Assembly (NCBI GenBank): GCA_003094555.1
Contig: NATW01000132.1
Coordinates: 1 to 43,096 of the forward strand
DNA: 43,096 bases
Source of the DNA: a gamma proteobacterium symbiont of Ctena orbiculata
Lineage (GTDB): Bacteria > Pseudomonadota > Gammaproteobacteria > Chromatiales > Chromatiaceae
Direction: 5' to 3'
Below the pieces are notes generated by a model, which saw nothing but the letters and a program-made list of their open reading frames with translations, was not told where the DNA came from and ran no database searches. Made by a program: the position numbers and the translations under genes. Shown piece after piece: positions 737 to 12,784 of this stretch (its first letter is position 1; every line of letters begins with the position of its first letter).

Positions 737-1948
737 TCAGGCATTGAACCTCAGGACGTGAATCCCTTCGCCCCGCTCGTGAACATACGCCAGGCGATTG
801 ACAGGATCGAAGCCGAGGGTCCGCACCTGGTCGAGTTCACTGATCCAGGTAATGTCCGTGTTGCGCAGGCAGAAGTCCATGTCGAAGGTCGCATAGGGGC
901 GAATGTTGTTTAAAGGACTCTGATTGCCGTCGAAGGCCTGCTTGAGGTCGCGGGCGTCGTAGAGATAGAACCTGTCATTCATGGTGCCGCCGGTTGCGTA
1001 GGTGCCCTGCCAGCTGCCTGTGATCGCGCCACCCGTGTCATAGAAGGCGTCACTGCCGCCACAGCCGTAGGCCATGAAGGTGCGTGTCTCGGGCAGGACG
1101 ATAGTGCCTCGATGGGTGCTCATGCCGTTCCACACATCGCTCTCGTAACCGGGGGTGAAGGGATAGCCGCTGCCGGCGATGTCCGTGTAGTAGCAGGCAT
1201 TCACACCCGGGACCGTCTGGCTGGTGCTCCCCTGGACATCGTCTGGGTTGAAAAAGTGGAAGCCTGGGCCGTAGCCGGCGTTGTTCATCAGGGAGAGGTT
1301 GCCGCCGCCACCGACGATGGCCTGGTAGCCGCCGAACACGCTCTGCCACTCAGGCGGGAGTTCACAGCCCATGCCGTTGCCGACGATGCGCTGGTTCACA
1401 TTCGTGACCCGATAGGGTCCCAGCACGGTGTCGTCTGAAAGGTCGAGGCTCGGCCGAACGAACATGCAGGAGGATGTGGGATCGTTGATGTAGAGGCCCG
1501 CCACGGTGATCAGTAACCGGCCATTGGAGACCAGCATACCCGTTACAGGGGCGCCGTTGCCGTATTGCCCGTCGTTGACTTGGGCCTGACGGTTCAATCC
1601 GCAGGCCAAGGTGAAACTCTGCAGCATGCCGGCCGTATTGTACGGGGCCGAGAGGCTGGGTGTGGGGATGGATATCTCCGCAAGTATGGTGTTCACGCGA
1701 TCATTGTTGGTGGTCGATCCGGTGAGGAACAGGGAGTTGTTCGCCGGGTTGTAGGCAATGCCGCCACCGCCCTGATCCGGTGAGCCTTGGAAACCATCGT
1801 GGGCCTGCCCGCCAACGCTTCCGCTGCCGCTGGGTAGTGCAAAGCCTCCCAGGTATTCAATCTTCGAGGTGTCGTACAGCGGCAGATCCAGCTGGTCACC
1901 AAGGGCGGGTAAGACGCGAATCGTGAAGCTCTGTGTTGAACTTGCCAT
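737..1948 (-). CDS. Propeller-like protein with an N-terminal Ig-fold last strand (third cistron of a split Ig-propeller set)
   Basis: 403 residues. It begins MASSTQSFTIRV, which looks like the last strand of a bacterial Ig/cadherin-like domain, with no signal peptide. The rest is Gly-, Asn- and aromatic-rich with motifs such as GGIAYNPANNSLFLTG and a terminal VNRLAYVHERGEGIHVLRF. These resemble blades of a secreted beta-propeller; I do not recognise the family. Cysteines are scattered, suggesting an oxidising compartment. The start ATG is preceded by AGGAG at a 7-nt spacing inside a 35-nt spacer that directly follows the stop of the upstream cistron (1981-2271). Without that spacer the upstream ORF end (YVATADDGNA) and this start would read as one Ig domain. 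It may therefore be the body of a once-continuous Tat lipoprotein now translated separately. Export is unexplained if it is made alone. Confidence 0.75.
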   Translation of the reverse strand: MASSTQSFTIRVLPALGDQLDLPLYDTSKIEYLGGFALPSGSGSVGGQAHDGFQGSPDQGGGGIAYNPANNSLFLTGSTTNNDRVNTILAEISIPTPSLSAPYNTAGMLQSFTLACGLNRQAQVNDGQYGNGAPVTGMLVSNGRLLITVAGLYINDPTSSCMFVRPSLDLSDDTVLGPYRVTNVNQRIVGNGMGCELPPEWQSVFGGYQAIVGGGGNLSLMNNAGYGPGFHFFNPDDVQGSTSQTVPGVNACYYTDIAGSGYPFTPGYESDVWNGMSTHRGTIVLPETRTFMAYGCGGSDAFYDTGGAITGSWQGTYATGGTMNDRFYLYDARDLKQAFDGNQSPLNNIRPYATFDMDFCLRNTDITWISELDQVRTLGFDPVNRLAYVHERGEGIHVLRFNA

Positions 1949-1983
1949 GGTGTAACTCCTGTATCTCTATGGATCGTCCGCTA
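1949..1983 (-). promoter_or_regulatory. 35-nt intercistronic spacer with ribosome-binding site (copy B)
   Basis: Counted from the TAG stop of the 1981-2271 ORF (1981-1983) to the base before the ATG at 1948, the spacer is 35 nt. It carries AGGAG at 1956-1960. It is nearly identical to copy A at 2272-2306: three substitutions and two one-base indels that cancel, so both are 35 nt. It marks a translational restart in the middle of an Ig-like domain. Confidence 0.7.
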
Positions 1984-2271
1984 TGCATTCCCGTCATCGG
2001 CGGTAGCCACATAGGAAGCCGCGTCGGCCTCTCCGGTGGGGGTTCCACTGATCACACCGTCGTTGAGGGTGACGCCGTCTGGCAGTGCCTGGTCGAGGGA
2101 AATCGTCAGTGTGTCGCCATCCGGATCGGTGACATAGTCGTTGAGATCGATGTGGACGGCAACGCCCACGGTCCAGGTCTGCGCCGGAATCGTGCTCCAC
2201 ACGGGCGCCTCGTTCTGGTCGCCATCGGCGGGCATGACGTTAATTGTGAAGCTTTGTGTTGAACTTGCCAT
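1981..2271 (-). CDS. Stand-alone permuted Ig-like module (second cistron of the split set)
   Basis: 96 residues with no signal peptide. It starts MASSTQSFTINV (last strand of the preceding Ig domain), then a linker MPADGDQNE, then an almost complete Ig-like domain from APVWSTIPAQTW to YVATADDGNA, where it stops at TAG. That domain lacks its own final strand, which sits at the start of the next cistron. The start ATG at 2271 has AGGAG six bases upstream. The He_PIG/cadherin-like Ig family is common in secreted bacterial proteins, usually as uninterrupted tandem domains, so a cistron in which the domain boundary is shifted by one strand is odd. It is either a functional separate subunit, a fragment of a broken gene, or part of a product joined by recoding. 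Confidence 0.65.
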   Translation of the reverse strand: MASSTQSFTINVMPADGDQNEAPVWSTIPAQTWTVGVAVHIDLNDYVTDPDGDTLTISLDQALPDGVTLNDGVISGTPTGEADAASYVATADDGNA

Positions 2272-2306
2272 CGTGTACTCCTGTATGCTCTATCGATCGT
2301 CCTCTA
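2272..2306 (-). promoter_or_regulatory. 35-nt intercistronic spacer with ribosome-binding site (copy A)
   Basis: It runs from the TAG stop of the 2304-2618 ORF to the base before the ATG at 2271 and carries AGGAG at 2278-2282. It is a near duplicate of copy B at 1949-1983. The length is not a multiple of three, so stop-codon readthrough alone would not keep the frame. Confidence 0.7.
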
Positions 2307-2618
2307 GCCGGTTCCGTCATCGGCGGTCGCCGCATACGAGGTCGATGCGGTCGCTGTGGTGGGGGTTCCACTGATCACGCTACCGTTGAGGGTGACACCG
2401 TCTGGCAGGGGTCTGTCGAGGGAAAATGTCAATGCATCGCCTTCCGGATCGGTGACATAGTCGTTGAGATCGAGATGGACGGGATCGCCCACGGTCCAGG
2501 TCTGCGGTGGAATCGTGCTCCATACGGGCGCTCCGGGTTCACAGCCCGAGAAGACAATGCCCATGGCGACGTACCCGGTGTTGCGAATGAATTCCCGACG
2601 GGTTTGCAGCTTGCTCAT
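2304..2618 (-). CDS. Tat-exported lipoprotein with an incomplete Ig-like domain (first cistron of the split set)
   Basis: 104 residues from the ATG at 2618, chosen because AAGGAT lies just upstream and because it gives a compact signal: MSKLQTRREFIRN contains a twin-arginine motif (TRREFIR), then a short hydrophobic stretch ending in a lipobox (VFSGC). The mature part goes straight into an Ig-like domain (GAPVWSTIPPQTW to YAATADDGTG) and stops at TAG before the expected last strand. An upstream ATG in frame at 2639 is less likely. By family knowledge such proteins are folded in the cytoplasm, exported by Tat and anchored by lipid. Downstream cistrons at 2271 and 1948 follow after 35-nt spacers, so the three probably share a transcript. 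A close paralogue lies at 3123-3494. Confidence 0.7.
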   Translation of the reverse strand: MSKLQTRREFIRNTGYVAMGIVFSGCEPGAPVWSTIPPQTWTVGDPVHLDLNDYVTDPEGDALTFSLDRPLPDGVTLNGSVISGTPTTATASTSYAATADDGTG

Positions 2619-3122: not shown

Positions 3123-3494
3123 CTAGGCATTTCCGTCATCGGCGGTTGCCGCATACGAGGTCGATGCGGTCGCTGTGGAGGGGGTGCCACTGATCACGCC
3201 GTCGTTGATGGTGACACCGTTCGGCAGAGCGCTGTCGAGGGAAATCGTCAGCGCATCGCCATCCGCATCGGTGACATAGTCGTTGAGATCGAGATAGACG
3301 GGAACACCCACGGTCCAGGTCTGGGCCGGAATCGTGCTCCACACGGGCGCCTGGTTGTTGGTTGATCCGTCGTCGGGTGTTTCGTCATCGGCGGGTGGAT
3401 CGGAATCCTCGGAGCCACAGCCCATGAAGGCAATGCCCATGGCGACGTACCCAGTGTTGCGAATGAATTGTCGGCGTGTTTGCAGCTTGGTCAT
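3123..3494 (-). CDS. Tat-exported lipoprotein with an incomplete Ig-like domain (paralogue)
   Basis: 123 residues. MTKLQTRRQFIRN carries a twin-arginine motif (TRRQFIR), followed by a short hydrophobic run and a lipobox (AFMGC). A low-complexity acidic linker (SEDSDPPADDETPDDGS) leads into one Ig-like domain that ends, like its neighbour at 2304, exactly at YAATADDGNA and a TAG stop, lacking the final strand. AAGGAT precedes the ATG. No ATG with the ASSTQSFT strand follows here; the next 60 bases only weakly resemble the 35-nt spacers. It seems to be the orphan member of the family: either a truncated duplicate or an acceptor that uses a donor strand from another protein. Confidence 0.7.
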   Translation of the reverse strand: MTKLQTRRQFIRNTGYVAMGIAFMGCGSEDSDPPADDETPDDGSTNNQAPVWSTIPAQTWTVGVPVYLDLNDYVTDADGDALTISLDSALPNGVTINDGVISGTPSTATASTSYAATADDGNA

Positions 3495-10708: not shown

Positions 10709-12646
10709 TCAGTTGTTTGGTCGCCATGCGGGTTGACGGCCGTCTTCGGCCAAGATGCGTAGATTAGAACCGTCAACGTCCATGATCCACAATGCGCATG
10801 GACAGAGTAGTCTGGGTCCGAACCTGCCAGTATCGAGCGCGTCATCAAGTCTCGGGGCTCGCTCAAAGACGACGCTGTTGCTATCCGGCGAAATGGTGAA
10901 ATTGCCGATAGCTTCATTGGGTAAGCGGATGACCTCGTAGATCAAACCGCTGGCAAACTCAATGTAGTAGATAGCGCCTGATGCGGAGTCGAAGTCGTCT
11001 TCATAGAGGGAGAATGCCACGCCCGACCCATCCGGTGCCCATTCAATATCGAGGATATCGCATGTCGTTTGCGGGCAGAGACCCAGATCGAGGGCGACAT
11101 GGTTCGACGCATCCGAGGCGGTGGCGTAATAGATCACATCGCTGAGGGCCCTTGTCTCGAGAAAAAAGAGCTCGTCCGACGTTTCGGCAGTCGGCCCACT
11201 AACGATGCGGTAAGGCTTTCCCCTGTTGATATAGTTGCGTAGATCGAGCAGCCGGGTGCCGAGGGTGCCCACAGGGGGGGAATGGGGAACCTGCCAGAGG
11301 TTGTTCTCCGGGTCGGAGTGCTCCGGTTCCTGGTAGAGGTAATTGAGTGCGCTGCCGTCATGGGTCCAGGAGGGGGAGAAGAGCACCGGGCAGGTGACGT
11401 CCGAGGTGATATTGAAAAACACCTCGCCGCGTTCGGTGACTGTGCCGGGTACCACGTCCACCCATCCCGCTTCGCTGAAATTGCAGGGCTCTTGGAGTGG
11501 GTCCAGGTCCCAGATACGCATGTATTGACGGTGATTATCACCGAAGTCCGCCAGGGTCAGGGTGAAAGTCCAGTCCTGACCCAGATCTGTGAAATAGGAA
11601 TAGGGCTCGTCCATACCCTCGATATAGAGTTGTATGTCGCCATGTTCGATCATGTCCAGGGTGAACCTGACCGTCCCCTGGGGATATTGATCGTAAGCCT
11701 CCGGCAACGGGGGTCGGCTAATGCGGCGCAGGTTCTGTCCGTCCGCAGAGACGGCATAGAGGTCGCGGATATTGAGCGAGCGTTGCCAGTCGTGGCCGCT
11801 GTCAAAGGCCAGCTCACCGCCGTCGGGACGCCAGCTGAGACCGCCCAGTGCGATGCCGTCTACCGCTGCCACCTGGGCGGGTACCTGCCACAGCAGGGTG
11901 TCATGGGATCCGTCCGGATGGATGGTGCGGATGGTCTGGTTTGTGGTGCTGGGACTGACGTAAGCGATCAGTGGAACCGCTTGGGTAGCAAGCACGGTTA
12001 CTGTCACCGTTTGGCTGTCGCTGCCCCCGTGTCCGTCGTCGACGGTCACCGTGACGCTATGTGTACCGGCATCGCCTGTCTGGGTGGTGTAGCTGTTAGC
12101 TGTCATCCAGCCTGAATAGCTATAGTTGAGGGGGTCGTTATCCGGGTCATTGGCGGTCGGATTGAAGGCCACGGTCTCTCCCTCGGCAACGCTGATGTCG
12201 GCAATGGGGTCGAGCACCGGGGGCTGGTTGTCGCCTGTCGAGCTGGCGACGGAGAAGTTGATCGGGAAGTCGCCGGTGTTGATGTTGCCTGCGTTATCCT
12301 GACACCTGACAAAGTAGTTATAGGTATTACCGTCCGCGAGACCTGTCAGATCGGTCGAGTGGGACGTCGTTTCTGTGTTGGTGAAAGTGCCGGTCATGGC
12401 TGCATAGTCGGTACCGGCCGTGTCGGCATAGCGACATACGGATGCTTCATCCGTCGTGACGCCAAGGCTGGTAGAGGTCGTACCTGTCGGAAGCACGCTG
12501 GACAGGGGCGGTGTAGGGCTCGAAAGGCTGGGTGGGGAGGTGTCTGTCTCATCGAGTGGTGCATTACCCCCGCCACCACCAGAACCGCCACCACAACCTG
12601 ATATCAGTAGAATGTAAACCAGTCCGATTGGTATTCGCCTCGACAT
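10709..12646 (-). CDS. Lipoprotein with Ig-like domains and a TolB-type propeller
   Basis: 645 residues from the ATG at 12646, chosen for GGAG eight bases upstream and because it opens a lipoprotein signal (MSRRIPIGLVYILLISGC). A Gly/Ser linker is followed by two domains: a fibronectin/Ig-like region at about residues 40-135 and an Ig/cadherin-like domain at about 145-225 (VLDPIADISVAEGETVAFNP to DDGHGGSDSQTVTVTV). Then come TolB/WD40-like repeats such as IRTIHPDGS, LSWRPDGGELAF, IEWAPDGSGVAFS, FTISPDSNSVVFE and PAWRPNN. It is likely an envelope protein. It is the intact counterpart of the Ig-then-propeller layout that is split at 737-2618: here the last Ig strand directly follows DDGHGG without a break. 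Confidence 0.8.
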   Translation of the reverse strand: MSRRIPIGLVYILLISGCGGGSGGGGGNAPLDETDTSPPSLSSPTPPLSSVLPTGTTSTSLGVTTDEASVCRYADTAGTDYAAMTGTFTNTETTSHSTDLTGLADGNTYNYFVRCQDNAGNINTGDFPINFSVASSTGDNQPPVLDPIADISVAEGETVAFNPTANDPDNDPLNYSYSGWMTANSYTTQTGDAGTHSVTVTVDDGHGGSDSQTVTVTVLATQAVPLIAYVSPSTTNQTIRTIHPDGSHDTLLWQVPAQVAAVDGIALGGLSWRPDGGELAFDSGHDWQRSLNIRDLYAVSADGQNLRRISRPPLPEAYDQYPQGTVRFTLDMIEHGDIQLYIEGMDEPYSYFTDLGQDWTFTLTLADFGDNHRQYMRIWDLDPLQEPCNFSEAGWVDVVPGTVTERGEVFFNITSDVTCPVLFSPSWTHDGSALNYLYQEPEHSDPENNLWQVPHSPPVGTLGTRLLDLRNYINRGKPYRIVSGPTAETSDELFFLETRALSDVIYYATASDASNHVALDLGLCPQTTCDILDIEWAPDGSGVAFSLYEDDFDSASGAIYYIEFASGLIYEVIRLPNEAIGNFTISPDSNSVVFERAPRLDDALDTGRFGPRLLCPCALWIMDVDGSNLRILAEDGRQPAWRPNN

Positions 12647-12784
12647 ACGCACATCTCCATCTGTGGTATCGTGTCTAACACCCTATATCAGGACTTTAAT
12701 TCTCATGGAAGATCATTGTTGGAACCGGGATGGCGGTCACATTAGGGTCAATTAGTACTGCCTGAATCAGGTCGGGCCACAGGG

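Follow-up and report, generated by a model that had tools for sequence, protein, structure and literature searches.

Cistrons and spacers at the locus

Three successive ORFs lie on the minus strand of the window (the whole 43,096-nucleotide stretch of DNA analysed), at 2304-2618, 1981-2271 and 737-1948, with the ADDG-TAG ends and strand starts that the original prediction had described. ORF1 (2304-2618, minus strand) starts with the ATG at 2618, a longer alternative start being possible at 2639, and encodes a Tat-type lipoprotein signal and, after it, an Ig domain from which the last strand is missing (hereafter referred to as an acceptor). Its signal, read by eye as TRREFIR...FSGC including the lipobox, occupies residues 1-26 (2541-2618, minus strand). 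The TAG codon of ORF1, which follows ADDGTG, is separated from the ATG of ORF2 by a spacer of 32 nt (J1; 2272-2303, minus strand) with the sequence AGGAG at 2278-2282, 6 nt 5' of the ATG. ORF2 (1981-2271, minus strand) begins with a donor strand (residues 3-13; 2233-2265, minus strand), identified by both the strand matrix and the Ig profile described below, and continues with a second Ig domain without its last strand, ending in ADDGNA-TAG. A second spacer (J2; 1949-1980, minus strand), of 32 nt in the window and 33 nt in the related genome G008, leads from this stop to the ATG of ORF3, with AGGAG at 1956-1960, 7 nt 5' of the start. ORF3 (737-1948, minus strand) shares the N-terminus MASSTQSFTI with ORF2; its donor strand (residues 3-12; 1913-1942, minus strand), identified by the strand matrix and weak in the Ig profile, precedes a domain of about 380 residues without a Pfam name. 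As originally predicted, no signal peptide was seen in either ORF2 or ORF3.

The three-cistron layout held for ORF1 to ORF3, but a fourth cistron had been missed. ORF4 (3123-3494, minus strand) encodes a second Tat-type lipoprotein, the Ig domain of which is cut at the same place as those of ORF1 and ORF2 and which, like ORF2, ends in ADDGNA-TAG. Its signal, with a TRRQFIR motif and a lipobox cysteine, was read by eye at residues 1-26 (3417-3494, minus strand). No ORF with a strand start is present 3' of ORF4, leaving this acceptor with no donor cistron. After its TAG codon, the window frame reads ETQSVIDI, resembling the last strand of an Ig domain; the sequence 3' of this stop differs between the window and G008. 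In ORF1, the Ig domain follows the lipobox cysteine with almost no linker, whereas ORF4 and the corresponding lipoprotein of L011, a related genome considered below, have a linker rich in aspartate at this point.

An intact lipoprotein at 10709-12652 (minus strand) served for comparison. It contains a complete Ig domain (Big_9 matched over positions 1-89 of 89) and, at the position equivalent to the split, reads VDDGHGGSDSQTVTVTV without interruption, in agreement with the earlier description; the end given there as 12646 corresponds to an in-frame ATG and is corrected to 12652, the position of a GTG start.

Position of the cut within the Ig fold

A local Ig profile of 87 positions combined 11 intact Ig domains that do not belong to the split locus, originating from two other contigs of the same genome (L004 and L006), another genome of the genus (L015) and the intact window lipoprotein. 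Seven truncated domains from three genomes (three from the window, three from G008 and one from L011) all fitted this profile from position 1 to position 74-75; the fit covered positions 1-75 for ORF1, and residues 22-95 of ORF2 corresponded to positions 1-74. Profile scores of 29.6 and 28.7 bits were obtained for ORF1 and for the L011 lipoprotein, respectively. Three donor starts were scored: residues 3-13 of ORF2, in both the window and G008, matched positions 77-87, and residues 3-12 of the window ORF3 matched positions 77-86, with a weak fit in the last case (E value of 1 for the protein). Among Pfam families, He_PIG scored above its cut-off of 24 bits in ORF2 (40.4) and ORF4 (34.3), with an alignment ending at the same place in both and in agreement with the local profile. 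ORF1 fell below the cut-off (Big_9, 17.9 versus 23.6 bits), and no Pfam Ig family was found in the L011 lipoprotein. A complete Ig domain within a single chain was thus found neither with He_PIG (aligned to position 83 of 96) nor with the local profile (to 74-75 of 87).

We ranked the N-termini with an eight-residue strand matrix, for which the last strands of 12 Ig domains beyond the locus were used. Among the 185 mechanically listed window ORFs of at least 60 amino acids, ORF2 came first (19.1) and ORF3 second (15.7), the next score being 7.4; the best score anywhere in ORF1 or ORF4 did not exceed 6.1. The complementary split exceeds chance. At the sequence level, the strand missing from the acceptor is found at the N-terminus of another chain, the match being weak for ORF3. 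In the five donor starts available, codons 1-4 are identical and residues F8, I10 and V12 are invariant, with variation at residues 5, 7 and 11.

Conceptual read-through proteins were also considered. In those of L011 and L009, the Pfam Ig match was not lengthened into the strand behind the spacer (no Ig family was detected in the L011 protein, and Big_9 without He_PIG in the L009 protein), which either counts against completion of the domain or is due to the inserted spacer. AlphaFold2 modelling of the L011 read-through chain yielded a mean pLDDT of 31, too low to inform on a joined fold. The model of ORF2 alone had a pLDDT of 76, with its own N-terminal strand in beta conformation (residues 5-13, pLDDT about 58-62), and this strand may fit self-completion. 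A Foldseek comparison of the ORF2 model with the PDB returned 133 matches at E≤10, the best with an E value of 0.23 and none at E≤0.001.

Related genomes and the ORF3 family

ORF3 was found in three of the 22 genomes of the genus: that of the window, G008 (labelled as the same species) and G004. The junction pattern was present in exactly these three genomes, which include a single-contig genome and L011, a metagenome-assembled genome of a gamma-proteobacterial symbiont of the clam Ctena orbiculata and the sole match among named records; L011 and G004 were counted as one genome, and the L011 sequence was used for G004. The clam host, together with the literature, suggests that the genus is Ca. 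Thiodiazotropha. G008 has the same four cistrons as the window. L011 has two cistrons, the lipoprotein-Ig cistron ending in ADDGNG-TAG and the ORF3 cistron starting with MASSSQSFTI, and lacks ORF2, which is carried by both the window and G008; one lineage would therefore have acquired ORF2, or else the other would have lost it. The split layout looked for in relatives thus recurs, in a four-cistron version in G008 and a two-cistron version in G004/L011, and the genus yielded no uninterrupted ORF. The three genomes and their five junctions are closely related and hence not independent. A sequencing error is an unlikely cause of the split, because three assemblies carry it, including one that consists of a single contig.

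Searches for relatives of ORF3 covered the genus (22 genomes), family (146 sampled), class (369 sampled), phylum (398 sampled), one order (210 genomes) and the order of G585 (293 sampled), these samples overlapping; no unsplit protein combining Ig domains with ORF3 was present among the relatives found. In viral contigs, 112 stretches fitted a pattern and none was a relative. A search with the ORF2 protein identified Ig relatives in 10 of the 369 sampled class genomes and, beyond the three matches at the split locus, all 18 Ig matches lay in open frames of 484-4679 amino acids.

The original prediction had assigned a propeller to ORF3. This fold is putative: no Pfam family exceeded its cut-off (the best being Secretin_N, 13.8 versus 28.2 bits), no NCBIfam family was found, and PDB sequences yielded no match at E≤1 to a three-row ORF3 family and 10 matches at E≤10 to a 15-row family, none of them convincing (the best, to an antibody light chain, had an E value of 0.0019 over 48 positions; another, to 6-phosphogluconolactonase, had an E value of 0.053). 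Distant members of the family were recovered with a three-row and then a five-row profile at 20 places (one in the class, one in the phylum, three in the order of 210 genomes and 15 more in the order of G585). Identity to ORF3 was 18-25% across the 12 distant rows of the family alignment (A3). A signal-like start was recognised by eye in 17 of the 20; the starts of L045 and L047 lie outside the fetched DNA, and L048 is doubtful and contains a TGA codon. None of the 13 distant relatives scanned with Pfam contained an Ig family (for L045 and L047, the scan covered the part within the locus). In ORF3, an Ig strand occupies the N-terminal position at which relatives bear a signal, an arrangement that fits export of ORF3 on a partner.

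LamG domains are fused to the ORF3-family protein in L045 and L047, and the family member at 2704-3810 of L032 adjoins a right-handed beta-helix protein, making a polysaccharide-related role possible for the family. The C-terminal halves of L035 and L042 look beta-helical by eye, and no Pfam family was found there. Six cysteines are invariant in the three-genome alignment of ORF3; if disulfide-bonded, they would be awkward for folding before Tat export.

A putative strand-linked complex, its alternatives and known systems

We consider there to be about an even chance that the locus encodes three subunits joined by donated Ig strands and exported by the Tat pathway on the lipoprotein ORF1. ORF1, ORF2 and ORF3 would be separately translated subunits of one complex, probably from a single transcript; a scan for promoters and terminators detected fewer sites than in shuffled sequences on average, and co-transcription is therefore deduced from the 32-nt gaps. 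At their N-termini, ORF2 and ORF3 would each supply the missing strand with their first dozen residues, completing the Ig fold of the upstream subunit in trans. The complex would fold in the cytoplasm and then be exported through the lipoprotein signal of ORF1, which would anchor it and hold the signal-less ORF3 domain outside the inner membrane. We infer the pairing in trans, the export on ORF1 and the final location. ORF1 and ORF4 have the twin-arginine motifs of Tat substrates, read by eye, and TatC is present in the genome (238.8 bits). Usher proteins (PF00577) had no matches in this genome and, among 14 control genomes, matched in E. coli only. Donor-strand complementation, as originally proposed, gains from the recurrence of the split in relatives; the low-confidence read-through model lends it no support, and the beta conformation of ORF2's own strand would also suit self-completion.

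Production of one polypeptide by recoding, either by read-through of TAG or by bypassing, with ribosomes moving from the stop into the following cistron, is highly improbable. At all five related junctions, AGGAG lies 6-7 nt 5' of the ATG. The distance from stop to ATG (stop counted) is 36 nt at J2 of G008 and in G004, giving an open stretch in frame, as would suit read-through, but 35 nt at both window junctions and at J1 of G008, so the frame is not maintained. Likewise, the bypassing take-off codon GCA is matched by a downstream-frame triplet at J2 of the window and of G008, but at the other three junctions the take-off codon has no in-frame counterpart. Each mechanism thus fits two of the five junctions and is disfavoured; together with the AGGAG and start codon at all five, this speaks for separate initiation of each cistron. 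Gene decay, the simple alternative of the original prediction, would imply that a single lipoprotein gene was broken and that its fragments are drifting. It accounts for the weaker constraint on the Ig parts than on ORF3 (omega of 0.285 for ORF4, and 0.258 for ORF1 against the L011 lipoprotein), for an ORF4 without a donor and for the variable number of Ig cistrons among genomes, but is unlikely given the selection on the locus. The dN/dS of ORF3 is 0.08-0.10 (0.078 for window-G008, 0.096 for window-G004 and 0.101 for G008-G004), with an alignment free of gaps over 403 codons in the three genomes; nonsynonymous and synonymous differences number 10:39 for window-G008 (P=1.6e-15 under neutrality) and 31:88 for window-G004, with the L011 sequence (P=9.6e-29), and the G008-G004 counts give P=8e-28. 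Between the window and G008, ORF1 has zero nonsynonymous and five synonymous differences (P=0.0012) and ORF4 has 21 and 22 (P=0.00025); ORF2, with one of each, has too few for a selection test. ORF3, ORF1 and ORF4 are under purifying selection, and AGGAG, the start codon and the strand core are preserved at all five junctions. Decay consequently fails for ORF3 and is the less favoured account of ORF1 and ORF4. Values of dS between the window and G008 are uneven (0.014 for ORF2 and 0.064 for ORF1, versus 0.142 for ORF3 and 0.282 for ORF4), a hint that recombination or gene conversion has occurred in the region of the Ig cistrons (1981-2618).

The main rival to a complex assembled in trans retains separate proteins but dispenses with strand exchange: after fission, a vestigial strand would persist on ORF2 and on ORF3 and each protein would fold alone, with ORF2 folding its own strand back into its Ig domain, the strand of ORF3 being a leftover, and ORF3 acting elsewhere or binding through another surface. 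The strand at residues 5-13 of the ORF2 model, albeit of low confidence there, and the persistence of ORF4, an acceptor without a donor, in both the window and G008 are in its favour. It nevertheless leaves the constancy of F8, I10 and V12 in all five donor starts to be accounted for; ORF3 contains neither an Ig domain that its strand could fill nor the signal-like start seen by eye in most of its distant relatives, and we regard this explanation as conceivable but doubtful. A narrower version of the complex, in which only ORF1 and ORF3 pair and ORF2 is a dispensable duplicate cistron, is suggested by L011, with just a lipoprotein and an ORF3 cistron, and by the near identity of ORF2 between the window and G008 (dS as above), as after a recent spread; it is improbable, since ORF2 is open and retains both its donor strand and its truncated Ig domain in the two genomes that bear it. 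Returning to the three-subunit complex, a more extended form would be a modular chain exported by Tat without chaperone or usher and assembled in the cytoplasm, with an anchor (ORF1, perhaps also ORF4), a repeatable ORF2 and an ORF3 tip linked by interchangeable Ig strands. ORF2, with a donor strand and an open groove, could repeat as a polymer. We consider such a chain rather unlikely, and the same reserve applies to the idea that gain and loss of cistrons lengthen or shorten it.

In chaperone-usher pilins, an Ig-like fold without its last strand is filled by a strand from the N-terminus of the following subunit. The likeness to the Fim and Pap pilins would reside in this supply of the missing strand; the present locus differs in the lack of an usher in the genome, in Ig domains that belong to He_PIG or Big_9 where a cut-off is reached, and in a first subunit with a Tat-type lipoprotein signal followed by ORF2 and ORF3, which show none. 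The type V pili of Bacteroidetes are built from lipoprotein precursor subunits, the groove of which is freed by a protease. Lipoprotein precursors and strand exchange between subunits would be common features, but in type V pili the subunits are themselves made as lipoproteins and the groove is opened proteolytically.

For TasA and TapA of Bacillus subtilis, two papers describe an N-terminal strand that completes the beta-sandwich of another subunit without a chaperone-usher system, and draw a parallel with Fim and Pap (PMC9674648; PMC10151520). The resemblance would lie in this mechanism, no sequence relation being seen; at the present locus, an otherwise ordinary Ig array is cut internally into separate cistrons. 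Signal-less partners are likewise exported on a Tat-signal subunit in the hitchhiker complexes HybOC and E. coli PaoABC, which include a three-part case (PMC4273604). These complexes are cofactor enzymes, whereas at the present locus a lipoprotein would act as carrier and an Ig strand would provide the link. Tat hitchhiking and donor strands beyond the chaperone-usher pili are therefore each already known; a report joining the two was not evident in the open-licence literature.

In domain, linker and order, the locus resembles an ordinary array of tandem He_PIG/Big_9 Ig surface proteins; the cuts fall before each last strand, whereas the 18 Ig matches elsewhere in the 369 sampled class genomes lie in open frames of 484-4679 amino acids. 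If the three-subunit reading is correct, donor-strand linking arose by gene fission of such an ordinary tandem-Ig protein, without pilus machinery, and a single donated strand holds a Tat cargo together. This would suggest an evolutionary route to strand-exchange assemblies, and the system comprises two or three small genes.
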